NCBI RefSeq assembly: GCF_005222835.1
Contig: NZ_STGA01000073.1
Coordinates: 186,001-250,000, forward strand
Length of the DNA: 64,000 nucleotides
Reading direction: 5' to 3'
DNA from: Rhizobium sp. FKY42
GTDB lineage: Bacteria; Pseudomonadota; Alphaproteobacteria; Rhizobiales; Rhizobiaceae
Under the pieces are notes generated by a model, which did not search any database, was not told the DNA's origin, and saw nothing but the letters and a program-made list of their open reading frames with translations. Shown piece after piece: positions 6,399-64,000 of the stretch; positions within the stretch are counted from its first letter, which is position 1, and each line of letters begins with the position of its first letter. The translations under genes were made by a program, and so were the position numbers.

Positions 6399-7265
6399 TC
6401 AGACGCCAATCAGCTTGGCGCCAGCGCGAGAGATCCATGAACCGCGGTTTTCGCGAGGCTCCAGACCACCACCCTTCAACAACTTGAAGGAGTCCGCGTA
6501 CCAGTGACTGTCAGGATAGTTCTGCCCAAGAACGGCAGCAGCCGTCTGCGCCTCTTCCTGAACGCCCATGGCATAATAGGCCTCGACAAGACGAGCGAGT
6601 GCTTCTTCGACCTGATTGGTGCGCCCGTAGTTTTCAACCACATTGCGGAAGCGCTGGATGGCGGCGAGATATTCCTTCCGCTCCAGATAGTAGCGACCGA
6701 CCTGCATTTCCTTGCCCGCCAACTGGTCGCGCGCATAACGCATCTTGGCCTGCGCATCCTCGACATATTCCGACTTTGGATAGTTACCGACGACCTTCTG
6801 CATGGCATCGATGGTGTTGCGCGCCGCCTTCTGGTCCTGCGTCACGTCAGCAATCTGTTTCGAATAGGACAAGCCGACGAGGTATTGAACATAGGCGCTG
6901 TCAGTGGAGCTCGGATACTGGCGCAGGTAACGATTACCCGTTGCCACCGCCTCGTCGTATTGCGCCAGGCGGTACTTGGAGAAGGTGCTCATCACCAGCG
7001 CCTTGCGGCCCCATTCTGTGAATGGGTTCTGACGATCGATCGAATCGAACTTTCGGCTGGCCTCGGCAATGTTGCCAGCCTTCATGTTCGCGAGACCCTG
7101 ATTATAAAGCTGCTCTGGAGGATCCGTCGCCAGACCCAGCTTGGTGATATCGATGTCAGGATCTGACTGGCATGACGTGACCAGCGAAGATGTGCCGACC
7201 AACAATAGAGACACCAGCGCTACTCGTGCAGTGTTTCTCATTCCAACAGACATAGACTCAGTCAT
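6399..7265 (-). CDS. bamD: Outer membrane assembly lipoprotein BamD
   Basis: Encodes about 288 residues. A lipoprotein signal ends in VTSC with the lipidated cysteine at about residue 32. The body is built of tetratricopeptide-like helices ([53 protein letters not shown]), as in BamD/ComL, the essential subunit of the beta-barrel assembly machine on the inner face of the outer membrane. The start at 7265 has GGGA about 9 bases upstream; internal ATGs at 7253 and 7241 are also possible and would still leave a complete signal. Upstream lies lpxC with its own terminator, so bamD probably has its own promoter. Confidence 0.9.
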
Positions 7266-7395
7266 TCGACAGTTCCCGATTGCCACGCGATATTACAGCG
7301 ACCGCCTCAATTGGCGTTCTAGCCATATAAGAAGCAAGAGAGCAACGCAATGATGTGGCTTTGACGCAATTTTGTGGCACTCTTGCCAAAGATAC

Positions 7396-7427
7396 AAAAA
7401 GAAAAGCCGCCTTACGCGGGCGGCCCT
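7396..7427 (-). terminator. Rho-independent terminator after lpxC
   Basis: Read on the minus strand, a GC stem (GCCGCC at 7406-7411 with GGCGGC at 7419-7424) is followed by TTTTCTTTTTG. It ends lpxC transcription about 20 bases after its stop. Confidence 0.7.
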
Positions 7428-7447
7428 TCAAATTCATCAATGTTCAT

Positions 7448-8401
7448 TCAACCTACAGAGGGCGCAAGCTCCTGCACCTTCACCGGAACAAATTCCCGGG
7501 CACGCACGCGCTGACTGCGGCTCGGAGCTTCAACCACCTCATAGGCGGTAGGATCGCTCATCAGCGCCTTGAGGGCATTGGCATTCATTTTGTGTCCGCC
7601 ACGATAGGAACGATAGCAGCCGATGAACTGCGCACCGGCAAGCGCCAGATCACCAACAGCATCCAGCGTCTTGTGGCGAACGAACTCGTCGACGAATCGC
7701 AGACCCTCTACGTTCACCACGGTATTGTCATCGGAAATCACCACCGAATTCTCCAGCGAAGAACCGAGTGCGAAACCGGCAGCCCAGAGGCGCTCGACAT
7801 CACGCATGAAGCCGAAGGTCCGGGCGCGCGAGAGTTCATCACGAAATACGTTGGCGGTCAGATCACCCTTCCAGGACTGGCGACCGATCAGCGGCGCTTC
7901 GAAATCGATTTCAACCTCGAAACGTGTGCCATCATAGGGACGAAACTCAGACCATGAAGCCCCTGATTCGATGCGCACCGGCTTCAGAACGCGAATATAA
8001 CGGCGCTTCTCGCCGAGATTGACCATTCCGGCGCTTTCAATCGCTTCGATGAAGGGGAAAGAAGAGCCATCCATGATCGGCATTTCAGCGCCCTCGACTT
8101 CGACGATGACGTTGTCGAGCCCAAGCGCATAAAAAGCCGCCATCACATGTTCGATCGTCGCAACCGACCGTGGCAGCGAGGTGCCGAGCACCGTGCATAG
8201 ATCCGTATTCCCGACGTTGGAAGACACCGCCTTGTATTCCACACTGGAACCATCGGCAAAACTGCGGCTGAAGATGATGCCCGTCCCCGGATCTGCGGGC
8301 TGGAACGTGATCGAAACCGGGCTTCCGGAATGAACACCGATTCCCGAAAGCGTTACCGGCGATGCGATCGTTGTTTGAAAACCCAAAAATCCAACAGTCA
8401 T
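7448..8401 (-). CDS. lpxC: UDP-3-O-acyl-N-acetylglucosamine deacetylase LpxC
   Basis: Encodes 317 residues, the usual length. It catalyses the committed zinc-dependent deacetylation in lipid A synthesis in the cytoplasm. Visible are the start of the fold (GFQTTIASPVTLSGIGVHSG), the first zinc histidine in IEHVMAAFYALGLDN, and the HKTLDAVGDLALAG block carrying the second His and the Asp ligand. The start at 8401 is the family start; the frame continues upstream but has no family similarity there. It stands alone between two terminators, downstream of ftsZ, so it is probably a single-gene unit. Confidence 0.96.
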   Translation of the reverse strand: MTVGFLGFQTTIASPVTLSGIGVHSGSPVSITFQPADPGTGIIFSRSFADGSSVEYKAVSSNVGNTDLCTVLGTSLPRSVATIEHVMAAFYALGLDNVIVEVEGAEMPIMDGSSFPFIEAIESAGMVNLGEKRRYIRVLKPVRIESGASWSEFRPYDGTRFEVEIDFEAPLIGRQSWKGDLTANVFRDELSRARTFGFMRDVERLWAAGFALGSSLENSVVISDDNTVVNVEGLRFVDEFVRHKTLDAVGDLALAGAQFIGCYRSYRGGHKMNANALKALMSDPTAYEVVEAPSRSQRVRAREFVPVKVQELAPSVG

Positions 8402-8418
8402 TCGTTTTGCCTTTATGT

Positions 8419-8436
8419 CTCCCGTCATGGCGGGAG
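8419..8436 (-). promoter_or_regulatory. Small hairpin in the lpxC 5' leader
   Basis: CTCCCG and CGGGAG form a 6-bp GC stem with a 6-base loop, ending 18 bases before the lpxC start codon. It could influence translation or RNA stability; no role is known. Confidence 0.35.
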
Positions 8437-8599
8437 TTATGCTCTTGGGGGCTAGACTCAAATCCACCTGACTCAGAACCCATTTATGATCCTGTAGATA
8501 CGGCGGTCTCTTCCACAATCCAAATCACTGTTCATTTCGGATTGTAACGAAAACCCCCGCTCGAAAACGTCTCAACCGATTCTCACAACCCTTTAGATC

Positions 8600-8633
8600 G
8601 CAAAGAAAAACCCGGACTTGCGATCCGGGTTCC
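8600..8633 (-). terminator. Rho-independent terminator after ftsZ
   Basis: The stem AACCCGGA (8609-8616) pairs with TCCGGGTT (8624-8631). On the minus strand it runs into TTTTTCTTTG, a typical U-tract. It lies about 25 bases after the ftsZ stop and closes the ddl-ftsQAZ unit. Confidence 0.85.
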
Positions 8634-8657
8634 CATTGCTTTGCGATTCTCTGTGTT

Positions 8658-10487
8658 TCAGGTGGATTGACGGCGCAGGAAGGCCGGAATTTCCAGCTGG
8701 TCGTCATCTTGATGATGTGATGACGGAACGGCGCGACCGTGATCGTCCAGGTTGCCTCGGCGCGGCGCATAGAGGCTTGCTTCTGGCGAAAGCGCACGAC
8801 GCTGCTGCGAAGCGGCGGATGGTGCTGCTGTCATGTCTGAAGCAACCTGCTCCTCCTCATCACGGCGACCAAGCGAGTTGGTGATGCGCTTGAGAAGGCC
8901 CATCGGTCCACGCTCTTCCTGTGGGGCGGCCACGGGCTGTGCGCGCTGTTCCATTTCAGCCTTAACCACCGGTGGGAAATCTTCCACCTTTGGCATACGA
9001 ACCTGATCAACGCTCTGGCGAACGATCGGAGCGATTGGCTCGATCGGGGGAGGCGCCATGCGCGGTGCAGGTGCTGCGGCCATCGGCTGCGGAGCGGGCT
9101 GTGCCGAGAAGCTTGGAGCTTGCGGTGCTGCCGTGAAGGATGGAGCGGGAGCAGACGGCTGCATCGGAAGCGGAGCCGGACGCTGGGCAACAGGCTCGAC
9201 CGGAGCAGCAGCCTGGAACAGGCGGCTTTGCGGACGGAACTCGTCGGCGGCTGGCGCAGCAGCAACAGGTGCTGGCTGAGGTGCCGGAGCGGACTGCTGG
9301 ACAGGTGCTGCAGCCATTGGCGCCGGGATCGAAAGCTCGCGTTCCATCTGGGCTTCTGCCTGACGGATCGTTTCCGCAACCGGATCAACCGGAGCAGGAC
9401 GGGGGGCCTGCATCATCGCAGGCTGAACTGCGGCCGGAGCCGAAGCAACGGCCGCGGAAGGACGGATAATCGGCTTCTGCGCAGCGCGCATGTCGGCTCC
9501 GCGAAGATCGTTTGCATTGTGCGCACGATCGATGCCTGTTGCCACAACAGAGACGCGGATGACGCCTTCCAGAGCCTCGTCGAAGGTCGCACCCAGAATG
9601 ATGTTGGCATCCGGATCGACTTCTTCGCGAATGCGGCTTGCCGCTTCGTCGACTTCGAACAGCGTCAGGTCGCGACCACCGGTAATGGAGATCAATAGGC
9701 CTTGTGCGCCCTTCATCGAGGTTTCATCCAGCAGCGGGTTGGCAATGGCGGCCTCGGCAGCCTGCATTGCACGGCCTTCGCCAGAAGCCTCGCCAGTGCC
9801 CATCATTGCGCGGCCCATCTCGCGCATCACGGAGCGAACATCCGCGAAGTCGAGGTTGATGAGGCCTTCCTTCACCATCAGGTCGGTGATGCAGGCAACG
9901 CCGGAGTAGAGAACCTGGTCCGCCATGGCAAATGCATCGGCAAACGTGGTCTTGTCATTAGCGATGCGGAAGAGGTTCTGGTTCGGGATGATGATCAGCG
10001 TATCGACGGACTTCTGAAGCTCCTGGATACCCTGCTCTGCCAACCGCATGCGGCGGCCACCTTCGAAGTGGAACGGCTTGGTGACGACGCCAACGGTCAG
10101 GATACCCTTGCTGCGGGCAGCCTGCGCAACCACCGGAGCAGCGCCCGTACCCGTACCGCCGCCCATGCCGGCAGTCACGAAGCACATATGCGTGCTGGAC
10201 AGGTGATCCATAATTTCGTCGAGGCATTCCTCAGCGGCGGCGCGACCGACTTCCGGCTGCGAACCCGCGCCAAGACCTTCGGTGACCTGAACGCCCATCT
10301 GGATGATTCGCTCGGCCTTCGACATCATGAGGGCCTGCGCATCCGTGTTGGCAACGACGAAATCGACGCCTTCCAGGCCTGCGGTGATCATGTTGTTGAC
10401 GGCGTTACCGCCGCCTCCGCCAACGCCGAAGACGGTGATCCGAGGCTTCAGCTCGGTAATGTCCGGCTTTTGCAGCTTGATGGTCAT
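8658..10487 (-). CDS. ftsZ: Cell division GTPase FtsZ
   Basis: Encodes about 609 residues, much longer than Escherichia coli FtsZ (383). The tubulin-like GTPase comes first: [14 protein letters not shown] near the N-terminus, the tubulin signature [14 protein letters not shown], and the synergy region with [18 protein letters not shown]. From about residue 320 there is a linker of nearly 250 residues rich in Pro, Ala and Gln, then the conserved C-terminal peptide [10 protein letters not shown] that binds FtsA and other partners. FtsZ forms the Z-ring at midcell. The ATG at 10487 has AAGGAA upstream; the frame's longer start is not family-like. It is last in ddl-ftsQ-ftsA-ftsZ. Confidence 0.97.
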
Positions 10488-10573: not shown

Positions 10574-11905
10574 TCAAAAACTCTCCTTGAGCCACTGCCC
10601 CATGCGGGCAAAACGGCCACCACCGCCGCCGAGCGTGGACAGAAGCCCGCTCTGCTCGGAATGCGTTTCCATGTCTGCGACCTGCGGATAGATCAGAAGA
10701 CCGACCGCAGTCGAAAAGGCCGGACCCTTGGCGGCCGTCGGCAAACCGGAGACCCCCATAGGGCGACCAATGCGGACATTACGGGCAAGAATACGGCGAG
10801 CCGTATCTGGCAGACCGGTCAGTTGGCTGGCACCGCCTGTCAGAACCACACGCTTCCCGACGATCGGGCTGAAACCCGATTTCTGAATACGATCGCGAAT
10901 CAGTTCCAGCGTCTCCTCAAGGCGAGCCCGGACGATTCGAGTCACCAGAGCGCGCGGAACCTGTGTCGGCTGATCGCGATCATCTTCGCCAATCGGCGGA
11001 ACGGAGATCAAGTCACGCTCATCGGCTGCCGTGGCAATGGCGGAGCCATGAAGCACCTTCAGGCGTTCTGCATCTTCGATTCGGGTGGAAAGCCCTCGGG
11101 CCAGATCGGTGGTCACATGGTGACCGCCAATGCTGATGGCATCGGTATGCACCAGCTTGCCCTCGGCGAAGACGGAGATGGTCGTCGTTCCACCGCCCAT
11201 GTCGATGGCGGCGCAACCAAGCTCGACCTCATCATCCACCAGAGCCGCAAGACCGCTGGCATAGGGCGTGGCAACAATGCCTTCGACCGACAGATGGGCG
11301 CGGTTGACGCACAGCTCGATGTTCTTGAGCGCGGCCCGCTCAGCGGTCACCACATGCATGTCGACGCCGAGAAGATCCCCATACATGGAAAGCGGGTCGC
11401 GAATCCCCTGCTCTCCGTCAAGAGAAAAGCCTGTCGGCAGCGAATGCAGAACCGCACGATCCTGTCTACGAGACTGTTGGCTCGCAGCAACCAGCACCTT
11501 GCGAAGGTCGGAAGCCTCAACCTCCTGCCCGCCCAGATCGATGCTGGCCGTGTAGACATCGCTGGTCAGGCGACCGGCAGAAACGTTGACGATCAGGCTA
11601 TCGACAGTCAGCCCCGCCATGCGCTCGGCAGCATCGACAGCGAGGCGGACGACGCTTTCGACGGCATCGATATCGGCAATGACACCGGACTTGACGCCGC
11701 GCGAACGCTGGTGACCGATCCCGATGATTTCGACATTGTGCGTGCGGTTCGGCAGAATCTGGCTCTCCTTGCGGGGTGTCAGACGGCCAATCATGCATAC
11801 GATCTTGCTGGAGCCGATATCGAGAATCGAAACGACATGCGACCGCTTGGAAGACAAAGGCTTCAAGCGGGGCAATCCAAAACCGGAAGAACCGAACAAA
11901 CTCAC
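10574..11905 (-). CDS. ftsA: Cell division protein FtsA
   Basis: Encodes 443 residues of the actin/HSP70 ATPase superfamily. Phosphate 1 is visible as VSILDIGSSKIVCMIG near residue 27 and phosphate 2 as CAAIDMGGGTTTISVF; the adenosine motif is VVLTGGASQLTGL. The C-terminus ends in an amphipathic stretch (GRFARMGQWLKESF) that anchors FtsZ polymers to the membrane. The N-terminal extension before the ATPase core (about 25 residues) is common in rhizobia. Its ATG overlaps the ftsQ stop by four bases (ATGA), indicating translational coupling, and ftsZ follows after 86 bases. Confidence 0.96.
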   Translation of the reverse strand: MSLFGSSGFGLPRLKPLSSKRSHVVSILDIGSSKIVCMIGRLTPRKESQILPNRTHNVEIIGIGHQRSRGVKSGVIADIDAVESVVRLAVDAAERMAGLTVDSLIVNVSAGRLTSDVYTASIDLGGQEVEASDLRKVLVAASQQSRRQDRAVLHSLPTGFSLDGEQGIRDPLSMYGDLLGVDMHVVTAERAALKNIELCVNRAHLSVEGIVATPYASGLAALVDDEVELGCAAIDMGGGTTTISVFAEGKLVHTDAISIGGHHVTTDLARGLSTRIEDAERLKVLHGSAIATAADERDLISVPPIGEDDRDQPTQVPRALVTRIVRARLEETLELIRDRIQKSGFSPIVGKRVVLTGGASQLTGLPDTARRILARNVRIGRPMGVSGLPTAAKGPAFSTAVGLLIYPQVADMETHSEQSGLLSTLGGGGGRFARMGQWLKESF

Positions 11906-12831
11906 GTCTGACCTCCAGCTTTCTTCAGTGCCTTCGCCCGCGCGGCCAGAGCCTGCTCACGTCGTTCCTGTGCGCCTTCAGTCAGGCGAATTGTCGTACG
12001 GTCCGGGAGGCGAAGGTCAATGGCCGCGATATCCCGCTCAAGTACGCCTTCGGCAGCTTCGTATTTGGCGAGGGACGCAAGCGCTTCTTCGACGCCCTCT
12101 TCCGGCAACTTGATGATGACGCCATTGTTGAGATGCAGATCCCAGCGGCGACCGGCAACGCGCACATAAGCGCGAACGCGGGAGCGAAGATCCTGCCAGC
12201 CTGCCATTTCGGTCTGGAACGAAGCGGCAGCCTTCTCAGCGCCACGACCGACGAAAAGCGGAAGGGAAGCAAACTTGCTGTCGCGCAGAGGTGCGATCAC
12301 GCTGCCGTTCTTCTCGATAAGCGAAAGCTCGGAACCGTTCTGCCAAATGCCGAATGCCTCGCGCTCCTTGAGCGTCACCTCAATGGTCTTCGGATAGACT
12401 TTACGCACTTCGGCATACTGAACCCAAGGCAGCTTGCTCAGCTTCTGGCGTGCACCTTCAACGTCGAGCGCAACGAGCGAGGTCGTGCCATCCAGCCCGA
12501 GCAGTTGCAGGATGTCGATTTCCGAAGTTTCGCTATTGCCCGAGACGCGAACATTCTCGATGGCAAAGCCCACCGCCGCCGTCGTGCTCTGTGCGAAATC
12601 GTCGGTGTGCCCGCCGAGCGACATGCCGTAGAGACCGACCATACCGAAGAAGGCGAAAACGGACACTGTACCGGTATGGCGAGGAATATGAACACGACCG
12701 GTTGCAAGGCTCACGCAGAAGCGCACGACGCGCCGGAGCGGGCGCGGCAACACAAGACGCTCGTCACTGGGCTTGCCAGCACCGTAACGCAGATCTTTAC
12801 CGGTATTGGATTTACCGTTCAGCGAGAACAC
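11902..12831 (-). CDS. ftsQ: Cell division protein FtsQ
   Basis: Encodes about 309 residues: a short basic cytoplasmic tail, one membrane helix ([20 protein letters not shown] region), a POTRA domain ([24 protein letters not shown]) and the FtsQ beta-domain ([28 protein letters not shown]). It is a single-pass inner-membrane division protein that, in studied species, recruits FtsL/FtsB. The GTG at 12831 is preferred because GGTGGAGGA lies 7 bases before it; this overlaps the ddl end by 13 bases. A GTG/ATG frame start at 12852 is less well supported. Confidence 0.9.
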
Positions 12832-55112: not shown

Positions 55113-55829
55113 TCAAGCCGCTGAACGATTGAAGTTCAACACGCGCCCTACGCCGGAGCGCACGATGCGCATGGGCATCAGGCGCTTCACCTCATCCGCC
55201 AGCGCACGAATGTTTTCGCGGGCCTTCTCGAGGTTGGAAACCTTTGCCGCATCCAGCGTATAGAGCGTACCGCCCACTTCGAACAATTCGCGGAAGGCCG
55301 TGCGTTCGCCAATCGGCGTATTCAGCACGTTCACACCGCGCTGAGCCAGCAGGCCCTTGATCGCGAGAAGCGAGCGGGTCGTGACCATGGGCGTGACGCG
55401 GGTCAGCACCACGGAGTGAGCCACCGCATGGCCTGCCTTCTCCTTCATCAGCGCCAGAAGGTCGAGGATCTGTGCCGCTCCCTTCGCATCCATGGCTGAT
55501 CCCTGCACCGGGATGAACACATGGTCGGAGAGGCCAAGCGCCGTCGTCACCAAGGCGTCGCGCGCGCCAGCAAGGTCGATAACAAAGTAATCCGTCTGTC
55601 CCGCCATCTCGCGCAGATGACACTGCAGAGACGCGACAGATACTTCTGTAATAATGGAGATGTTGCGCACGGCACCGGACATCTCGTGCCATTGGCTGAT
55701 CCAACGTTGGGGATCCGCATCAATCAGCGTGACCCGATAGCCTTGGTGAGCGAGTTCGGTGGCAAGTAGCAGTGCTGCGGTGGTTTTGCCTGCCCCACCC
55801 TTGGCATTCGCGAAAGAAATCACGGGCAT
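55113..55829 (-). CDS. ParA/VirC1-like P-loop ATPase
   Basis: Encodes 238 residues of the ParA/MinD family. The deviant Walker A reads KGGAGKTT at residues 10-17; ALIDADPQ-like VTLIDADPQRWISQW and TDYFVIDLAGARDALV follow. The short length and the DADPQ motif recall VirC1 and other orphan ParA proteins. No parB or centromere-like repeats are seen nearby, so plasmid or chromosome segregation cannot be claimed. The start at 55829 has GAGG upstream. Confidence 0.8.
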   Translation of the reverse strand: MPVISFANAKGGAGKTTAALLLATELAHQGYRVTLIDADPQRWISQWHEMSGAVRNISIITEVSVASLQCHLREMAGQTDYFVIDLAGARDALVTTALGLSDHVFIPVQGSAMDAKGAAQILDLLALMKEKAGHAVAHSVVLTRVTPMVTTRSLLAIKGLLAQRGVNVLNTPIGERTAFRELFEVGGTLYTLDAAKVSNLEKARENIRALADEVKRLMPMRIVRSGVGRVLNFNRSAA

Positions 55830-55992
55830 AAATCGGCATCCTCGTCTGTAATCGAGCCGCATCGCTCAAACGAGCACCGGAACATGTGCTCTTGAAGTAA
55901 AGTTTCTCCAAACAGGGTTAACGATGTGTAAATTCATAATACGTTAATTTACCTAACAGAACTTAGGATTGGGCGCGCACAAAGATGCTCGC

Positions 55993-56022
55993 AAAAAGAG
56001 GTCCGGCAGCTTACCGGACCTC
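55993..56022 (-). terminator. Rho-independent terminator after the alcohol dehydrogenase
   Basis: AGGTCCGG (55999-56006) pairs with CCGGACCT (56014-56021); on the minus strand TTTTT follows directly. It closes the alcohol dehydrogenase gene and its upstream partner. Confidence 0.8.
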
Positions 56023-56046: not shown

Positions 56047-57192
56047 TCAGAAGCAGTCGCGGAAAAGCTGCTTGGTATTTTCCAACGTCAGCGTCACCGG
56101 ATTACCGCCGCAGGACGGGTCTTCAATCGCCATGGCGGAAAGTTCGTCGATTCGGTCCGGCTGAATACCCATCGCCGTCAGGTTGTCAGGCACATGCAGT
56201 TCCGCACGAAGCTTCAGTACATAGTCGTAGAAGCCGTCGAAGCCGCCCGCGATTCCGAGATAGGCGGCAGCACGCTCGATTTTGTACTCGATCTTCGAAC
56301 GATTGAACTTCAGCACAGGCGGCATCACGACGGCATTCGTCATGCCATGATGCGTGTTGTAGACGGCACCGATGGGGTGGGACAGCGCGTGGATGGCCCC
56401 CAAACCCTTCTGGAACGCGACGGCACCCATGGCAGCGGCCGCCATCATGTTGGTGCGGGCCTCGATATCCGTGCCTTCGTGGTAGGCGCGTGGCAGGAAT
56501 TCCTTCACCAGTCGCATGCCTTCCAGCGCAATGCCCTGGCTCATTGGGTGATAGAAGGGCGAGCAATAGGCTTCAAGGCAATGGGCGAAGGCGTCCATCC
56601 CCGTTCCAGCCGTGATTGCCTTCGGCATGCCGACCGTCAGTTCCGGATCGCTGATCACGACACCCGGCAGGAACTTCGGGTGGAAGATGATCTTCTTTAC
56701 ATGGGTCACCGAATTGGTGATGACGGAAGCGCGGCCCACTTCCGAACCGGTGCCTGCCGTTGTCGGAACCGCAACGATCGGAGCGATTCCTTCCACCTTC
56801 GCACGCGTCCACCAGTCGCCAATATCCTCGAAGTCCCAGACCGGACGATCCTGGCCGACCATGAAAGCAACGCACTTGCCAAGATCGAGGCCGGAGCCAC
56901 CACCGAAAGCAACGACGCCATCATGCCCACCCGCGCGGAATGCCTTGATGCCCGCTTCGAGGTTCTTCTCATTCGGGTTGGGATCGACATCCGCGAAGAT
57001 GGCGCGGCCAAGGCCCGCCTCTTCCAGCACGTCCAGCGCCCCTTGCGTGATCGCCATATTGGCGAGTCCGCGGTCGGTGATCAGCAGCGGCTTCTTCATA
57101 CCCAGCGATTTGCAGGCGTCCGCCAGTTCCTTGATGCGGCCGCGGCCAAGCTTGACGGCGGTCGGGTAGCTCCAGTTTGCGGTGATGTTCAT
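56047..57192 (-). CDS. Iron-containing alcohol dehydrogenase (group III)
   Basis: Encodes 381 residues. The nucleotide-binding GGGSGLDLGK lies near residue 100, and the iron ligands fall in the GTGMDAFAHCLEAYCS block (Asp, His) and HALSHPIGAVYNTHHGMTNAVVM (two His). Group III iron dehydrogenases reduce or oxidise primary alcohols and diols with NAD(P). Its neighbours are an aldehyde dehydrogenase 6 bases upstream, so alcohol to aldehyde to acid in one unit is likely. The start follows the aldehyde dehydrogenase stop closely. Confidence 0.9.
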   Translation of the reverse strand: MNITANWSYPTAVKLGRGRIKELADACKSLGMKKPLLITDRGLANMAITQGALDVLEEAGLGRAIFADVDPNPNEKNLEAGIKAFRAGGHDGVVAFGGGSGLDLGKCVAFMVGQDRPVWDFEDIGDWWTRAKVEGIAPIVAVPTTAGTGSEVGRASVITNSVTHVKKIIFHPKFLPGVVISDPELTVGMPKAITAGTGMDAFAHCLEAYCSPFYHPMSQGIALEGMRLVKEFLPRAYHEGTDIEARTNMMAAAAMGAVAFQKGLGAIHALSHPIGAVYNTHHGMTNAVVMPPVLKFNRSKIEYKIERAAAYLGIAGGFDGFYDYVLKLRAELHVPDNLTAMGIQPDRIDELSAMAIEDPSCGGNPVTLTLENTKQLFRDCF

Positions 57193-57198
57193 GGCGTC

Positions 57199-58578
57199 TC
57201 AGGCTTTCTTGAGGTGATAGGACTTCGGACGGGTCAGGTTGTGGAAGCCGAGGACGGAGAGCGAGCCACCGCGTCCGGTTTCCTTCACACCCGTCCAGAC
57301 CAGTGCCGGATCGAGATAATCACAACGGTTCATGAAGACCGTGCCAGTTTCGAGTTCGGTGCCGATGCGGGAAGCGCGTTCCTCATCCTTGGTCCAGAGC
57401 GAAACGGTGAGCCCGTATTTGCAATCATTCATCAGGTCGAGCGCCTCAGCATCGCTCTTCACCTTCATGATGCCTACGGCAGGACCGAATGTCTCCTCGC
57501 GCATGAACTCCATGGAGTGGTCCACGTCCACCAGGATCTGCGGCATCAGATAGGCGCCGCCATCGTCCTGCGGGAACAGTTTCGGATCGACCAGCGCCTT
57601 TGCACCCTTGGCAACCGCATCCGCCACCTGTTGGCGCACCGTCTTGGCGAAACGCACATTGGCCATCGGTCCGAGGGAGGTTTCTTTGTCCAGCGGATTA
57701 CCGAGCTTGTAGTTGGAAACCCAGGCAACTGATTTCTCGACGAAGGCATCATAGAGGCTCTCATGCACATAGATGCGCTCGATGCCGCAGCAGCACTGGC
57801 CGGAATTGAACGTCGCGCCATCCATCAGCGTGTCGACGGCGGCATCCAGATCCGCGTCTTCCATCACATAGCCCGGATCCTTTCCGCCCAGCTCCAGCCC
57901 CATGCCGGTAAAGGTTCCGGCAGCGGCTTTCTCCACCGCACGGCCACCTGCGACAGACCCGGTGAAATTGATGAAGTTGAACGAACCGGCGGCAATCAGC
58001 TTCTCGCTGGTGGCGTGGTCGAGGAACAGGTTCTGGAACACGTCTTCCGGCACGCCGGCTTCCACGAAGGCGCGCACCATGCGTTCACCGACCAGCAGTG
58101 TCTGTGCAGCATGCTTGATGATGACCGTATTGCCAGCCATCAATGCAGGAGCGACCGTGTTGATTGCCGTCATGTAGGGGTAGTTCCACGGTGCGATGAC
58201 GAAGACGACGCCATGCGGCTCGCGCTCGATGCGGCGCGTAAAGGCGGCGCTGCTCTCGATCTGGATTGGCGCCAGCGCCTCGGCAGCCACGCTTGCCACA
58301 TAGTTGGAGCGCTCGTTGAAACCCTTGAACTCACCGCCATAGCGAACGGGGCGCCCCATCTGCCATGCCAGTTCCGGCACGACCTCGTCCACCATCTCGT
58401 TCAGGCGTGCGACGCCCTTCATCACCAGTTGAACGCGGTCCTCCAGCGGGCGCTTGGCCCAGTCCTTCTGCGCCCGACGCAAGCGGGCGACCACTTCGCT
58501 GGCAGCTTCCAGAGAACTGGCAGGCCGTTCGGCATAGACCGAACCATCTACCGGCGAGATACATTGGATCATTGTCAT
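57199..58578 (-). CDS. NAD(P)-dependent aldehyde dehydrogenase
   Basis: Encodes 459 residues of the ALDH superfamily. Catalytic Glu229 is in LELGGKDPG and the nucleophile is one of the triple cysteines in SGQCCCG (Cys263 by position). FVIAPWNYP and GSVAGG mark the cofactor site. It would oxidise the aldehyde produced by the adjacent alcohol dehydrogenase. The ATG at 58578 has AGGA upstream; the longer frame lacks support. A terminator separates it from the upstream synthetase gene. Confidence 0.9.
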   Translation of the reverse strand: MTMIQCISPVDGSVYAERPASSLEAASEVVARLRRAQKDWAKRPLEDRVQLVMKGVARLNEMVDEVVPELAWQMGRPVRYGGEFKGFNERSNYVASVAAEALAPIQIESSAAFTRRIEREPHGVVFVIAPWNYPYMTAINTVAPALMAGNTVIIKHAAQTLLVGERMVRAFVEAGVPEDVFQNLFLDHATSEKLIAAGSFNFINFTGSVAGGRAVEKAAAGTFTGMGLELGGKDPGYVMEDADLDAAVDTLMDGATFNSGQCCCGIERIYVHESLYDAFVEKSVAWVSNYKLGNPLDKETSLGPMANVRFAKTVRQQVADAVAKGAKALVDPKLFPQDDGGAYLMPQILVDVDHSMEFMREETFGPAVGIMKVKSDAEALDLMNDCKYGLTVSLWTKDEERASRIGTELETGTVFMNRCDYLDPALVWTGVKETGRGGSLSVLGFHNLTRPKSYHLKKA

Positions 58579-58600
58579 GATCGTTTTCCTGTTACCCTTC

Positions 58601-58626
58601 AAAAAATGACAGCGGCACCGCCGCTG
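58601..58626 (-). terminator. Rho-independent terminator after the synthetase-like gene
   Basis: CAGCGGC (58610-58616) pairs with GCCGCTG (58620-58626); TCATTTTTTG follows on the minus strand. Read-through to the dehydrogenases may still occur. Confidence 0.75.
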
Positions 58627-58670
58627 CCATGATGACATAGCTGCTTAACCGGCCAGACAGACCGTGGGCT

Positions 58671-60041
58671 TTAGGCCCGCTCGAAACCGCGCGCCACTTC
58701 CCAATCGGTGATGCGGCGGTCATATTCTTCCTGCTCCCATTCAGCTGCTCGCACATAATGGTCGATGACATCGTCACCGAATGCCTCCCGCAGCATGGCA
58801 GAATTGCGCAACAGCTCAGTTGCATGGCGCAATGTGCGCGGAATTTCCCGCACACCCTTGCCGCCATAGGCATCTCCGACGAAAGCAGGCTCAAGCTCCA
58901 TTCCGTTCTTGATACCCTCGATGCCTGCCGCGAGCAAAGCCGCCATGGCTAGATAGGGGTTCAGATCCGAGCCGCCGACGCGGCATTCGATGCGAATACC
59001 CTTGGTGTCTTCCCCGCACAACCGGAAGCCTGCCGTGCGGTTATCCTTGCTCCACACGATCTTGGTCGGCGCAAATGTTCCAGCCACGAAGCGCTTGTAG
59101 GAATTGATGTAGGGCGCGAGGAAATAGGTAATCTCTGAGGCGTGGGCCAGCAGACCAGCAATGTAGTTCTTCATCAGCGGCGAAATGCCGTGTTCGGCGT
59201 CCTTGTCGTAGAAGAGTGGCGTCTTGCCGTCGGCGCTCCAGAGCGACTGGTGGATGTGCGAGGAAGAGCCTGCCGCCGTATAGTTCCACTTGGCAAGGAA
59301 GGTTGCTGCCTTGCCTTTGGTCCAGGCGATCTCCTTGACACCGTTCTTGATGATGACGTGGCGGTCGGCCATCGTCAGCGCTTGCGCATAGCGCACATTG
59401 ATCTCTTCCTGACCGGCAGAGGCCTCCCCCTTGGAATTTTCCACCGGCACACCGGCCCCTTGCAGACCGGTACGGATGGCGCGCATGACCTCTTCTTCCT
59501 TGGTCGTCTGGAAGATGTGATAATCCTCGTTATAGCCGCTGGCGAGCTTCAGGTTGCGATAGCCGCTTTCGCGCGCCGACTCAAAGCTCTGATCAAACAG
59601 GAAGAATTCCAGCTCGGTCGCCATGAAGGCCGTGAAGCCCATGTCTTCCAGCCGCTTGACCTGTTTTTTCAAAATGGCGCGCGGCGAGTGCGGCACTTCC
59701 TCATGGGTGTGGTGGTCAAGAACATCGCAGAGCACCAGCGCCGTTCCTTCGAGCCAGGGAATCTTGCGCAGCGTCGAAAGGTCCGGCTTCATGGTATAAT
59801 CGCCATAGCCCTTCTCCCAACTGGTTGATTTGTAGCCAGAGACGGTCTCCATCTCCATGTCGGTCGCCAGCAGATAGTTGCAGCTATGCGTTTCCTTCCA
59901 GGCGCTTTCGACGAAATATTCTGCCTGGAAGCGCTTGCCCATCAGGCGGCCCTGCATGTCCACCTGCGCAGCGACAACGGTGTCGATCCGTCCGGCGGCA
60001 ACATCGATCTTCAGGTCGTCGAAAGTATAGGTCGAGCTCAT
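58671..60041 (-). CDS. Glutamine-synthetase-like gamma-glutamyl ligase
   Basis: Encodes 456 residues of the glutamine synthetase superfamily with no visible adenylylation NLYDLPPEE site. Signs of the fold include the EFFLFDQSFESARESG block (metal Glu), AGSSSHIHQSLW (His/Ser of the catalytic core) and ECRVGGSDLNPYLAMAALLAAG. Length and neighbourhood fit gamma-glutamyl-amine ligases (PuuA, IpuC, GlnA4-like) better than a housekeeping GlnA. It would attach Glu to a primary amine or amino alcohol. A permease, an amidohydrolase and an RpiR regulator lie upstream. Confidence 0.85.
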   Translation of the reverse strand: MSSTYTFDDLKIDVAAGRIDTVVAAQVDMQGRLMGKRFQAEYFVESAWKETHSCNYLLATDMEMETVSGYKSTSWEKGYGDYTMKPDLSTLRKIPWLEGTALVLCDVLDHHTHEEVPHSPRAILKKQVKRLEDMGFTAFMATELEFFLFDQSFESARESGYRNLKLASGYNEDYHIFQTTKEEEVMRAIRTGLQGAGVPVENSKGEASAGQEEINVRYAQALTMADRHVIIKNGVKEIAWTKGKAATFLAKWNYTAAGSSSHIHQSLWSADGKTPLFYDKDAEHGISPLMKNYIAGLLAHASEITYFLAPYINSYKRFVAGTFAPTKIVWSKDNRTAGFRLCGEDTKGIRIECRVGGSDLNPYLAMAALLAAGIEGIKNGMELEPAFVGDAYGGKGVREIPRTLRHATELLRNSAMLREAFGDDVIDHYVRAAEWEQEEYDRRITDWEVARGFERA

Positions 60042-60062
60042 TTTTCTTTATCCGTTCTCGAA

Positions 60063-60093
60063 TGGAAAACCGCCGCACCTCCCGTGCGGCGGT
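60063..60093 (-). terminator. Rho-independent terminator after the permease gene
   Basis: ACCGCCGCAC (60069-60078) pairs perfectly with GTGCGGCGGT (60084-60093); on the minus strand TTTTCC follows. The synthetase gene begins only 22 bases later, so read-through or a promoter inside this gap is needed. Confidence 0.75.
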
Positions 60094-60109
60094 GATTGGT
60101 ATTCAAATT

Positions 60110-61684
60110 TCACGCTTCGCCGACGGCCGCCTCCGCAGCGGCGATCTGCTCCTTGCGCTTGGCAATGGCATCGCCGATCGGCGGGCCCTGGAAGCGGCGG
60201 TTCTCGAAGCCGAACCAGACGATGGCGGTCAGAACCAGGAAGCCGAGCGTGATTTCAAGCGCCCAGTCATTTGGCGGCTGGACCCCGATGTAGAAGATGA
60301 TGGCCATCGAAACCACAGCGAGAATGGCAACAAGCTTGTAGGCGCCGACCCCCATGTTCCAGGGGCCCATCACCGGCCATTTCGACGTGCCGATAGCCGC
60401 AAATCCAAGGGCGATTGGCAGTACGAAGGACAGGAAGATGAAGATGACCGTGCAGGATACGACGATGGAATAGGCAGGCGTCCCCGCAATCGTGATGGCA
60501 GACGTGAACCAGACGAACAGAACGGCCAGGATTGCACCTGTCCAGATCGCTGCCACGGGGCTCCGGTACTTGCTGCTGACCTTTGCAAGGGTAGATGAGG
60601 CCGGAAGTCCCTTGTCACGCGAGAACGCATAGATCATGCGCGACAGAGAAGTGACGGTCGCCAGTCCGCAAAGAAGCTGTGCAAGGAAGATCAACACGTA
60701 AAGGATGGTCTTAACGCTACCGTTTACCTGGGCATCCATGGCCCAGAAGAACACGTTCCAGCCTTGCTTGGCGGCGTCATCCATGTTCGGCAGCATCAGC
60801 ACAAACGAGCACAGCATGATATAACCGAACACAGTCGACCAGATGACGGAGGAAACCATGCCCTTTGGAACCGAAACGGCAGCCTTCACCGTTTCTTCGG
60901 ACGTATGGGCCGAAGCATCATAGCCTGTGATGGTGTAGATCGGCAGCAGAAGACCCAGCAGAAACGCCATGCCGCCAGACACAGCCGTTGGCCAGACGGC
61001 AGCGCCCGTCATGCTGCCATCGGCTGCCATCGTCGGCTGGCCGGTGTAATTTCCGAACGTAAAGAGTCGCGCGAACTCATAGGATGGCGCACTGGCAAGG
61101 CAAACCACAGTGAGGATCACGGCAGTGGCCAGGATCAGATAGCCGGAAAAATCCGTCAGCTTTGCCGTGAGACCGATACCGAAATGGTTGATCAGGGCCT
61201 GAAGCGCGGTGATGACGGCCACGAACAGCACACGGTGCGTCAGCGTGTCTTCAATTCCGAACGTGGAGCCGAAGGCCCCGAAGAAGAAGTAGAAAGTACC
61301 GACGTTGATCGCGCCGAGAACGGTCACAAGACCAAGCAGGTTCAGCCAAGCCGAAAGCCAGCCGGTGAAGCGGTTACCCAGAATGGAGCCCCAGTGATAG
61401 AGGCCGCCTGCGGTGGGATAGGCCGAGCTGATCTGGGCAAGACCCAGCGCGAAGATGCCAGAGATCAGGCAGCCCAGCGGCCAGCCTATGCCGATGGAGG
61501 CGCCACCGGCGCCCGCTGTTGCCTGCCCCAGCGAATTGATACCACCGGACAGAATGCAGATGATTGAAAAGGAAATCGCGAAATTGGAAAAGGAACTCAT
61601 GCGCCGTTCCAGTTCCTGCGCATAGCCCATGGAGTGCAGGATCTGCACGTCCTCTTTCTTGTCATTCTCCGTATAATTTGACAT
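60110..61684 (-). CDS. APC-superfamily amino acid/amine permease
   Basis: Encodes 524 residues with 12 or so membrane helices. The N-terminal core has SFSIICILSGGINSLGQATAGAGGASIGIGWPLG, with the APC GS/GA-type motif in the first helix, and a late FAPSYE-like region (ASAPSYEFARLFTFGNYTG) and GYDASAHTSEETVKAA, typical of GABA/amine permeases of the APC family (COG0531-like). It probably imports the amine, amino alcohol or amino acid used by this cluster. No close partner in the sequence tells which. Confidence 0.87.
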   Translation of the reverse strand: MSNYTENDKKEDVQILHSMGYAQELERRMSSFSNFAISFSIICILSGGINSLGQATAGAGGASIGIGWPLGCLISGIFALGLAQISSAYPTAGGLYHWGSILGNRFTGWLSAWLNLLGLVTVLGAINVGTFYFFFGAFGSTFGIEDTLTHRVLFVAVITALQALINHFGIGLTAKLTDFSGYLILATAVILTVVCLASAPSYEFARLFTFGNYTGQPTMAADGSMTGAAVWPTAVSGGMAFLLGLLLPIYTITGYDASAHTSEETVKAAVSVPKGMVSSVIWSTVFGYIMLCSFVLMLPNMDDAAKQGWNVFFWAMDAQVNGSVKTILYVLIFLAQLLCGLATVTSLSRMIYAFSRDKGLPASSTLAKVSSKYRSPVAAIWTGAILAVLFVWFTSAITIAGTPAYSIVVSCTVIFIFLSFVLPIALGFAAIGTSKWPVMGPWNMGVGAYKLVAILAVVSMAIIFYIGVQPPNDWALEITLGFLVLTAIVWFGFENRRFQGPPIGDAIAKRKEQIAAAEAAVGEA

Positions 61685-61785
61685 GACGTTCCCCTGTTAT
61701 CGAATGGCCGCCTGAACGGCCTCGAATTCTCTCCCGCCCCCTTCTGGTTGCGGGCACGCCAACAACTGTCTCCCAGGGTCTTCTT

Positions 61786-62559
61786 TTAGTCCGGCTGCTT
61801 CAGGCTTTCCCGCAACAGGCCGGTCAGAAAATCAGCCACGACCCCTTGGCCAACTTCGTCTTCTATCAAATCGTTGCGCATCTCGATCATCACATTCAAA
61901 AGCCCGTTCGGCAGGGCATGAAGCTCAAGCGTATGAGTAACGCCATCCGCCGGACCATATGGTTCATTGCGCTCAATACGATAGAGTGAGGTGTCTGCAG
62001 CGGCCGCCAGCATTCGATCGGCAAGACGGCTGTCGGTATCGTGCAGTATCCCGATTTCAACCTCACGCGGCTTGCCGAAATAGACCGGCGTGAACGAATG
62101 CACAGTCACCAGTACGGCAGGTTGGCCGCGGGTGGCACGCGCCTCGATCTCATCACGAATGCGGTTCTGAAAAGGAAAATAGAGGGCCTGCGCCCTCGCC
62201 ACCTTCTCCTGCTCGCTCAGGTTCTCGTTTCCGGGAATACAAAAGACCTCACTGACCTCGCGCATGGCGGCTGGCGATTCCGGAGGACGATTGCAATCAT
62301 AGACCAGCCGGGAAAAACGCTGGTAAATCAGCGTAGCATCAAGGCTTTTGGACATAAGCCTCGAGACTGCCAGCGCGCCTGGATCCCACGCGATGTGCGA
62401 TGACAACGCATCGTCTGAAAGCCCCAACGTGCCAACGGCCTCCGGCAGGCGCAGGGAAGCATGCTCGCAAACCAGCACAACGGCGCTTCGCCCATCGGCA
62501 TTTTCCACAGCGACCGGTTGCCCGTCGCGTTCAGTCAGGAAGTCCGTTTGCGCCAACAT
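61786..62559 (-). CDS. N-formylglutamate amidohydrolase-like protein
   Basis: Encodes 257 residues of the FGase family (PF05013-like, HutG of some pathways). Likely zinc ligands are Glu32 and His33 in VLVCEHAS; LVTVHSFTP supplies another His. FGase releases formate from N-formyl-Glu or cleaves related amides. Here it stands beside a gamma-glutamyl ligase, so it could cleave a gamma-glutamyl amide product; this is an inference. It is followed by the permease after 101 bases on the same strand. Confidence 0.82.
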   Translation of the reverse strand: MLAQTDFLTERDGQPVAVENADGRSAVVLVCEHASLRLPEAVGTLGLSDDALSSHIAWDPGALAVSRLMSKSLDATLIYQRFSRLVYDCNRPPESPAAMREVSEVFCIPGNENLSEQEKVARAQALYFPFQNRIRDEIEARATRGQPAVLVTVHSFTPVYFGKPREVEIGILHDTDSRLADRMLAAAADTSLYRIERNEPYGPADGVTHTLELHALPNGLLNVMIEMRNDLIEDEVGQGVVADFLTGLLRESLKQPD

Positions 62560-62732
62560 TGCCTTGATCCAGCATCATGCCTTGAGGGTGTGGCGAAGAG
62601 AATTCTTCATCATCTTGTCATCGTCAACGATTTTTTGAAAATTTCTTTTCAGTCGCCGGATTGACTCTTGGGCTGTCACAAATGTTAACTGGAGCTAAAC
62701 CGGCATCAGACCGGAAGGGGAATTGAAGACCA

Positions 62733-63620
62733 GTGACATCTCCATCGCACACCGTGCTGGAGGTAATCCGTCAGCGCTATGACGGGTTGACCCCGGCTGA
62801 AAAGCGTCTCGCAGACAGCCTGCTGGAGAACTATCCCGTTTCCGGGCTGGGCAGCATCACTGCGACTGCCGACAATGCGGGCGTCTCGACCCCGACTGTT
62901 GCGCGCATGGTGCAGAAACTGGGCTACAAGGGCTATCCGGAATTTCAGGCCCACCTGCATGTCGAACTTGAAGCCACCATTTCAAATCCGATCACAAAGC
63001 ATGATCGCTGGGCATCCGGTGCGCCGACGGCACATATCCTGAACCGGTTCGCGGACGCCATCACCGACAATCTGCGCGAAACCTTGTCGACCATGGATGT
63101 CGCGACTTTCGATGCCGCGGCAGACTTGTTAAAGGATGACAGACGTGCGGTCTACTTTGTCGGTGGCCGCATCACCGGCGCTCTGGCCGAATACTTCTTC
63201 ACGCATATGCAGGTCATCCGACCTCGCGCCACCCTCATCTCCACCAATCGCAGTTCCTGGCCGCAATATCTGCTCAACATGAGCGAAGGCGACGTTGTCG
63301 TTATTTTCGACATACGTCGCTATGAGCAGGAGTTGGCGACGCTGGCAGAAACGGCTGCGGCGAATGGTGTGGTTATTATCCTTTTCACAGACGTCTGGGC
63401 ATCGCCGGTGGCTCGCCATGCGCAACATGTTTTCAAAGTGCGCATCGAGGCACCATCGGCCTGGGATTCGTCTGTGGTGACACTCTTCACTGTCGAGGCT
63501 CTGATCGAAGCCGTTCAAAGCGCGACGTGGGAAAAAACGAGAGAACGCATGAACGCTCTCGAAACGCTTTTTGAACGCAGTCGGCTGTTTCGGCGGACTG
63601 CTCCTGACAGGGAGCGTTAG
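62733..63620 (+). CDS. RpiR/MurR-family transcriptional regulator
   Basis: Encodes 295 residues: an N-terminal HTH_6 (VIRQRYDGLTPAEKRLADSLLENYPVSGLGSITATADNAGVSTPTVARMVQKLG) and a C-terminal SIS sugar-isomerase-like domain (AVYFVGGRITGALAEYFFTHM, DVVVIFDIRRYEQELATLAETAAANGV). Usually these sense sugar phosphates; here the neighbours suggest an amine-derived ligand. The start is GTG with a purine-rich leader (GGAAGGGGAATTG). It diverges from the amidohydrolase gene. Confidence 0.88.
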   Translation: MTSPSHTVLEVIRQRYDGLTPAEKRLADSLLENYPVSGLGSITATADNAGVSTPTVARMVQKLGYKGYPEFQAHLHVELEATISNPITKHDRWASGAPTAHILNRFADAITDNLRETLSTMDVATFDAAADLLKDDRRAVYFVGGRITGALAEYFFTHMQVIRPRATLISTNRSSWPQYLLNMSEGDVVVIFDIRRYEQELATLAETAAANGVVIILFTDVWASPVARHAQHVFKVRIEAPSAWDSSVVTLFTVEALIEAVQSATWEKTRERMNALETLFERSRLFRRTAPDRER

Positions 63621-63685
63621 TACAAGAAAAACAAGGGGAAAGCTGCCGAATGACAATAAGCATTTCACGGCGGCCTAGATGTTTA

Positions 63686-63715
63686 AAGTGTCACATTGCA
63701 TTCATGAAGTGGCAC
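63686..63715 (+). promoter_or_regulatory. Direct repeats, candidate operator
   Basis: AAGTGTCAC (63686-63694) and AAGTGGCAC (63707-63715) are repeated at 21-bp spacing, two helix turns, about 44 bases before the solute-binding protein start. They could bind the neighbouring RpiR protein. CTGTCACAAATG at about 62672 upstream of rpiR is partly similar. Confidence 0.4.
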
Positions 63716-63758
63716 TACGAGTTGCGCCCACACGAACCAGACAACGGAGGACATCGTG

Positions 63759-64000
63759 ATGACCAAGACCAAAAGACTGCTGTCACTGACCACGGCAATC
63801 ATGGTTGCATCAAGCAGCCTGGCACTCGCAGAACCAAGCGCAGAACTGATCGCAGCCGCCAAGAAGGAAGGCATGCTGACCACCATCGCCCTGCCCCATG
63901 ACTGGTGCGGCTATGGCGAAGTCATCGCTGCCTTCAAGAAGAAGTATCCGGAAATCAAGGTCAACGAACTGAACCCGGATGCCGGTTCGGCCGATGAAGT
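63759..64000 (+). CDS. ABC transporter solute-binding protein, 5' part
   Basis: Only the first 80 codons are in the window. A Sec signal (MTKTKRLLSLTTAIMVASS, then SLALA) is followed by EPSAELIAAAKKEG and the binding-fold start LTTIALPHDWCGYGEVIAAFKKKYPEIKVNELNPDAGS, as in family 1 extracellular solute-binding proteins, including polyamine and iron binders. GGAGG lies upstream (ATG 63759, or GTG 63756). Its place beside the regulator suggests it takes up the cluster's substrate. Remaining transporter genes would lie beyond the edge. Confidence 0.78.
   Translation, partial: MTKTKRLLSLTTAIMVASSSLALAEPSAELIAAAKKEGMLTTIALPHDWCGYGEVIAAFKKKYPEIKVNELNPDAGSADE

Follow-up and report, generated by a model that had tools for sequence, protein, structure and literature searches.

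A probable operon for ethanolamine catabolism by gamma-glutamylation in Rhizobium sp. FKY42 and the exchange of importers within it

Described gamma-glutamylation routes and the Rhizobium locus

In the Puu pathway of Escherichia coli, putrescine is glutamylated, oxidized and hydrolyzed in turn, with PuuB as the amine oxidase and PuuD as the hydrolase. For ethanolamine, the GlnA4 route described for Streptomyces coelicolor, SCO1611–SCO1615, has a ligase together with two dehydrogenases and an amidase that are proposed to process gamma-glutamylethanolamide (PMC6529630). Here, we analyze a 64,000-nucleotide stretch of Rhizobium sp. FKY42 (contig NZ_STGA01000073.1, positions 186,001 to 250,000; hereafter the window), taken from a genome of 4.9 Mb in 75 contigs, and an operon near its end that very probably encodes the catabolism of ethanolamine via gamma-glutamylation. 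The operon comprises genes for a ligase resembling glutamine synthetase (GS), an iron-containing alcohol dehydrogenase (ADH), an aldehyde dehydrogenase (ALDH), a permease of the amino acid-polyamine-organocation (APC) superfamily and an amidohydrolase of the FGase family, and beside it lie a divergent gene for an RpiR-family regulator and the start of a gene for a solute-binding protein of an ATP-binding cassette (ABC) importer. An earlier prediction, made from the letters of the window (the original prediction), had grouped these same genes, and all of them are present where it placed them.

The locus described for Phaeobacter sp. MED193 comprises RpiR, GGAH, EtoV, EtoW, EtoX, ETAGA, GAADDH and GETADH; on phosphatidylethanolamine, five of its proteins are listed at raised levels, and the Kd of EtoX for ethanolamine is 7.9 uM (PMC10132767). 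The same source, citing Vetting et al. 2015, calls these genes closely related to those with a demonstrated ethanolamine-pathway role in Chromohalobacter salexigens and Agrobacterium tumefaciens C58 (PMC10132767). As laid out there, the non-import functions are those of the window and stand in the same order, with RpiR followed by amidohydrolase, importer, ligase, ALDH and ADH. The importer differs, however, being the tripartite ATP-independent periplasmic (TRAP) system EtoVWX in Phaeobacter and an APC permease in the window, and whereas the window has a linked ABC importer, the Phaeobacter figure legend lists none. The ethanolamine set given for C. salexigens (PMC9397018) holds the same four Pfam families as the window, PF00120, PF00465, PF00171 and PF05013, but its binding protein, Csal_0678, is of TRAP type. 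In A. tumefaciens, the protein Atu2144 (Protein Data Bank, PDB, entry 2odf) matches the amidohydrolase of the window, and the Agrobacterium-named loci carry an Eat-type importer instead of the APC permease.

In the figure legend on the S. coelicolor route, the enzymes include a short-chain dehydrogenase and a glutamine amidotransferase (PMC6529630), while SCO1615 is grouped with the formylglutamate amidohydrolases in the discussion of that paper and in PMC9397018. The regulator of this route is EpuRI rather than RpiR, and its ligase and that of the window share a phenylalanine in place of E327. The original prediction had taken the set for an unfamiliar variant; this part does not stand, since the literature already describes the same enzymes with RpiR as an ethanolamine pathway in Phaeobacter (PMC10132767) and proposes a related route for S. 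coelicolor (PMC6529630). What is new here is modest: the importer has been exchanged repeatedly, the promoter region shared by operon and regulator has conserved blocks, and an ABC importer is linked to the set.

Conserved gene order and the enzymes of the proposed route

Comparative genomics of gene order, named in the original prediction as a check, bears its grouping out. Among the best 80 of at least 556 relatives of the ligase (80–89% identity; Rhizobium, Agrobacterium, Neorhizobium, Sinorhizobium/Ensifer, Shinella, other Rhizobiaceae and records titled Rhizobiales bacterium; hereafter the named loci), the FGase-family gene was found in 78 loci, the ALDH and ADH genes in 79 each and a divergent RpiR gene in 78. 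All of these occur together beside the ligase in 78 of the 80, and contig ends truncate the two exceptions, L072 and L102. Conservation at this level argues that the grouping is not due to chance.

Our inference of the reactions and the substrate of the route rests on relatives described in the literature and on sister loci. The APC permease would import ethanolamine, and the GS-like ligase would join it to the gamma-carboxyl group of glutamate at the expense of ATP. The ADH and ALDH would then oxidize the hydroxyethyl group, through an aldehyde still bound to glutamate, to a carboxylate, and the FGase-like enzyme would hydrolyze the resulting gamma-glutamylglycine to glutamate and glycine. 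The original prediction had proposed this general scheme for an amino alcohol, with glutamylation, oxidation to aldehyde and acid, and release of glutamate; it is favored by our analysis, with ethanolamine as the substrate, and is very probably right. The evidence that favors ethanolamine comprises the same enzyme set with RpiR in Phaeobacter, where proteins are raised on phosphatidylethanolamine and EtoX binds ethanolamine; matches of the ligase and the amidohydrolase to solved relatives over nearly their full lengths; a ligase that falls outside the GlnA model and carries the same substitution as GlnA4; an importer slot two of whose three types are tied to ethanolamine; and a genome with no EutB match.

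The ligase keeps the GS positions that bind metal, glutamate and nucleotide (E143, E145, E206, E213, H262, H264, R317, R340, E352 and R354), with residue roles taken from PMC6529630 and positions matched by our own alignment. At the place of the GlnA flap glutamate E327 it has F323, the same kind of change as F331 of the ethanolamine ligase GlnA4 (PMC6529630). It scores 267.6 bits against the GlnA model TIGR00653 (cut-off 429.15) and 244.9 bits against the type III GS model (cut-off 469.6), passing neither. The genome's own GlnA, L001, is encoded elsewhere and passes the GlnA model with 674.2 bits, so this model separates the two proteins, which are 33% identical; the ligase is likewise 33% identical to L003, a second GS-like ligase of the genome. 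Its PDB matches are 11zs (668 bits, residues 5–455) and 5dm3 (659 bits, residues 1–455), the latter of which we take to be Csal_0679 of C. salexigens, and the next solved relatives are glutamine synthetases at 194 bits or less. A scan of viral contigs found no relative of the ligase. Elsewhere in the genome a GlnII-like protein, L005, scores 388.1 bits against a cut-off of 500. In four other genomes, a GS-like protein 43–45% identical to that of the window lies beside a second one of 30–33% identity (G061:C19:276716-279433, G144:C254:9313-11986, G114:C400:193-2907 and G038:C347:18930-21630); these are a separate kind of locus.

Turning to the remaining enzymes, the FGase-like protein has one strong solved relative, 2odf, deposited as 'Hypothetical protein Atu2144' (332 bits, residues 3–253). 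An identity as the N-formylglutamate deformylase HutG was set aside, with a score of 23.5 bits on TIGR02017 far under the cut-off of 278.75; three further FGase-family genes lie elsewhere in the genome. The best NCBIfam model for the ADH is 4-hydroxybutyrate dehydrogenase at 345.5 bits against a cut-off of 500, meaning that no named equivalog fits, and the ALDH reached the cut-off of none of the 25 NCBIfam models listed out of 44 matched.

The canonical Eut reading, based on ethanolamine ammonia-lyase, was set aside because EutB has no match in this genome (among 14 control genomes, E. coli alone matches). Across the 199 genomes screened at the level of the order, 87 have the ligase (at least 51% identity among the matches listed), 48 have EutB and three have both (Fisher 3e-10, an overstated value as the genomes are related), and the split runs in the direction that alternative routes for a single substrate would give.

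Importers and the choice of substrate

Between the FGase-family gene and the ligase, on the operon strand, each of the 80 named loci carries exactly one of three importer types, with the sequence upstream of the ligase serving as the slot in L072 and L102. The window-type APC permease fills it in 54 loci, a different, Eat-type permease in 16, including every Agrobacterium-named locus examined, and a three-gene TRAP set in 10. On TIGR00908, the model of the ethanolamine permease, one Eat-type member, L093, falls a little short of the 381.75-bit cut-off with 360 bits, and the other 15 are 89–99% identical to L093. The TRAP binding protein of L081 matches 4uab with 552 bits, the next solved relative reaching 66, and the other nine are 64–87% identical to that of L081; 4uab is Csal_0678 of C. 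salexigens in complex with ethanolamine (PMC12410723). Two of the three slot importers are thus tied by sequence relationship to ethanolamine. As different importers occupy one slot around the same enzymes, the arrangement is best explained by a single shared cargo.

We take the importer in this slot to have been replaced several times. In a quickly built tree of 101 ligases, 16 changes of importer label are needed when only rows with a recognized importer are counted and 20 when the rest are included, and well-supported branches force at least nine changes for the window's type, eight for TRAP and two for Eat. This tree, the product of a short search, leaves 39 of its 96 branches unresolved, and the counts could also be raised by the transfer of whole operons. 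Elsewhere in this genome, no close relative of Eat or of the TRAP binding protein EtoX was found, the best being 28% and 27% identical, respectively. In the open-licence literature, searches not aimed at these transporters by name returned no account of the window's permease type or of the ABC importer in this role.

The linked ABC importer, of SBP_bac_6 type, is tied to the operon by its location only: it begins behind RpiR and continues beyond the window. A relative of its binding protein is present in 77 of the 80 named loci, the remaining three (L072, L084 and L102) being cut by contig ends, and this constant position beside RpiR suggests that the importer acts in the same route. In L135, which comes from the window's family but a different genus, genes related to those of the ABC importer directly follow the ADH gene on the same strand, so that the link to the operon does not run only through the divergent regulator; this is seen in one of 20 order-level loci. 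In both sequence and fold, the binding protein comes nearest to 5t1p, a 'putative periplasmic solute-binding protein' of Campylobacter jejuni; its AlphaFold model has a mean pLDDT of 71.6 (42.6–71.6 over five models), and the 50 PDB fold matches listed also include polyamine-, metal-citrate-, iron-, sugar-phosphate- and maltose-binding proteins. On 2-aminoethylphosphonate models, the binding protein reaches at most 60.6 bits against cut-offs of at least 310. The ATPase, which matches 189 models, scores 419.9 bits on a putative PhnT2 model (cut-off 457.7) and 354.6 bits on a polyamine model (cut-off 355.6). Perhaps this importer takes up ethanolamine at low concentration or a compound that bears ethanolamine; among the genes scanned, none would free ethanolamine from such a compound.

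Several observations weigh against the ethanolamine reading. Beyond the closest relatives the set is less complete: in 20 order-level loci, drawn from the 199 genomes with a different family code each (one being the window's own) and with ligases of 65–77% identity, the FGase-family, ALDH and ADH genes are each present in 17, RpiR in 14 (13 of them divergent beside the FGase-family gene) and a recognized importer in 15. One of these loci, L119, has the ligase without any pathway partner. The permease of the window is neither a close relative of Eat (25% identity over 252 residues) nor of TRAP type, reaches no NCBIfam cut-off and does not have TIGR00908 among its three matches, so its cargo is assigned from position only. 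The model for PuuA (gamma-glutamylputrescine synthetase, NF045547; cut-off 650), which the ligase fails with 207.9 bits, also rejects the other GS-like proteins of the genome, L003 at 209.0 bits and L004 at 176.3 bits, and so does not set the ligase apart from them. Lastly, three genomes combine the ligase with EutB, and related genomes enter the EutB count as though they were independent.

As to the makeup of the order-level loci, 13 have the TRAP set, two the window's permease type and five no recognized importer; L133 is cut by a contig end. In L119 (positions 6619-10178), the ligase gene is 74% identical to that of the window and lies behind a gene whose start resembles elongation factor G. 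In L127 and L128, where no known importer was recognized, the cluster is adjoined by a gene that, judged from its start, resembles choline-dehydrogenase-type (GMC) oxidoreductases.

The best-surviving alternative keeps the same chemistry and gives the route another small amino alcohol as its main natural substrate, such as L-alaninol (2-amino-1-propanol) or 3-aminopropanol, with another gamma-glutamyl amino acid as the product. The enzyme families suit primary amino alcohols in general, 4xf5, a second PDB entry with the sequence of 4uab, is presumably an alaninol complex, and a permease that differs from Eat could differ in specificity. Nevertheless, importers tied to ethanolamine serve the same enzymes in sister loci, and the Phaeobacter proteins are listed as rising on phosphatidylethanolamine (PMC10132767), leaving this substrate choice improbable. 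We consider a Puu-type polyamine route, with the ligase as gamma-glutamylputrescine synthetase, less probable still. The ligase scores about as well as L003 on the PuuA model, which does not separate the two, but both lie far under its cut-off. Moreover, although the three-stage logic is that of Puu, a Pfam scan of eight proteins of the locus found no amine oxidase (PuuB) or PuuD-type hydrolase family; the original prediction had an ADH in place of the amine oxidase and an FGase-like enzyme in place of PuuD. The L003 ligase gene, and not that of the window, is followed directly by a flavin adenine dinucleotide (FAD)-oxidoreductase gene whose best models, L-pipecolate oxidase and aminophosphonate oxidoreductase, are both under cut-off; we read these two genes (together at L003:1072-3811; C51:747690-751679) as a PuuA/PuuB-like pair, neither member of which passes a model, and not as a proven PuuA-PuuB pair. 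That the ligase is an extra glutamine synthetase whose neighbors serve unrelated substrates would agree with its GS fold and conserved metal, nucleotide and glutamate residues, but the failed GlnA and type III GS models, the replacement of E327, the GlnA-passing protein elsewhere in the genome and the order kept in 78 of 80 loci make this a negligible prospect.

Shared upstream region, flanking features and wider meaning

The main features of the operon and its surroundings are collected in Table 1, in which the Pfam scores of the six complete genes all exceed the curated cut-offs.

Table 1. Positions of the operon, its upstream region and the linked ABC importer (window coordinates unless prefixed)
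Feature	Position	Strand	Basis or remark
Likely operon terminator, behind the last gene	55998..56022	-	Sequence: hairpin, then five T
Iron-containing ADH, proposed gamma-glutamylethanolamide dehydrogenase	56047..57192	-	Pfam Fe-ADH, 159 bits
ALDH, proposed to make gamma-glutamylglycine from the gamma-glutamylated aldehyde	57199..58638	-	Pfam Aldedh, 389 bits
GS-like ligase, proposed gamma-glutamylethanolamide synthetase (ethanolamine gamma-glutamylase)	58671..60041	-	Pfam Gln-synt_C, 348 bits
APC-superfamily permease, proposed ethanolamine importer	60110..61684	-	Pfam AA_permease_2, 165 bits
FGase-family amidohydrolase, proposed gamma-glutamylglycine amidohydrolase	61786..62559	-	Pfam FGase, 141 bits
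Conserved upstream region, proposed RpiR operators and -35-like boxes	62595..62667		Alignment
TGAAGAATTCTCTTC block	62595-62609
TTGAC	62623-62627	operon strand
Dyad TGAAAAGAAATTTTCA	62636-62651
GAGTCAAT block (TTGAC on RpiR strand)	62660-62667
RpiR-family regulator, divergent	62733..63620	+	Pfam HTH_6, 61 bits; SIS, 83 bits
ABC solute-binding protein gene, start	63756..64000	+	Ends at C32:250862
ABC importer, whole (SBP_bac_6 type)	L006:9756-13718 (C32:249756-253718)		Binding protein, two permeases, ATPase
Solute-binding protein	L006:9756-10862		Ends at C32:250862, 862 bases beyond the window end
ABC permease 1	L006:10872-11867		Pfam 25.8 bits, just under the cut-off of 26.4
ABC permease 2	L006, about 11852-12646
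ABC ATPase	L006:12660-13718		Ends at C32:253718

An alignment of 79 intergenic sequences between the FGase-family and RpiR genes (78 loci and the window), with columns kept at 90% or more, retains GTCAA/TTGAC on either strand, the dyad TGAARAGANNNTTTCA between them, the middle of which is less well kept, and TGAAGAATTCT beside the TTGAC of the operon. We propose, from these conserved letters, that the blocks are promoter parts and RpiR operators. The divergent RpiR would probably repress the operon at TGAARA-N4-TTTTCA-like sites until an inducer binds. Two kinds of result count against the proposal. No promoter on the operon strand emerged here from a sigma-70 scan, whose three promoter-like sites in all are matched by 3.0 in shuffled sequences, and the dyad matches were equaled in 19 of 100 shuffles of the window and in 14 of 200 shuffles of L006. 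The pattern TGAAA-N2-8-TTTCA occurs in 28 of the 79 intergenic sequences, which is weak as a simple count.

Within the operon, the open reading frame of the ALDH as mechanically read begins too early, and a start near 58578 (MTMIQCISPVDGS...) is likely, which puts a hairpin at 58606-58630 between the ligase and ALDH genes. This hairpin and one at 60069-60093, in the gap between the permease and ligase genes, have T-rich tails on the operon strand and are possible sites of mRNA processing or attenuation. The hairpin scan reports the one behind the last gene on the plus strand only. Adjoining the operon is a ParA-like ATPase gene (55113-55862; ParA_partition 138.7 bits against a cut-off of 180), a relative of which is present in 67 of the 80 named loci.

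The arrangement in Rhizobiaceae could be pictured more broadly as a fixed enzyme core with an exchangeable slot, in which APC, Eat and TRAP importers have replaced one another many times, together with a dedicated ABC importer recruited either for a precursor that bears ethanolamine or for another substrate of the route; a derivative of a phospholipid head group might be such a cargo. We put this forward tentatively, as a doubtful but conceivable model.

In conclusion, many rhizobia and agrobacteria carry genes that general models label glutamine synthetase, alcohol dehydrogenase and N-formylglutamate amidohydrolase, and the route proposed here assigns these a probable function. It also supplies a testable substrate for the window's type of APC permease and for the ABC importer linked to the operon. 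The exchange of importers, which is observed here like the genes themselves, their families and their conserved order, has recurred within one slot and offers a clear example of transporters being replaced while the enzyme core stays constant.

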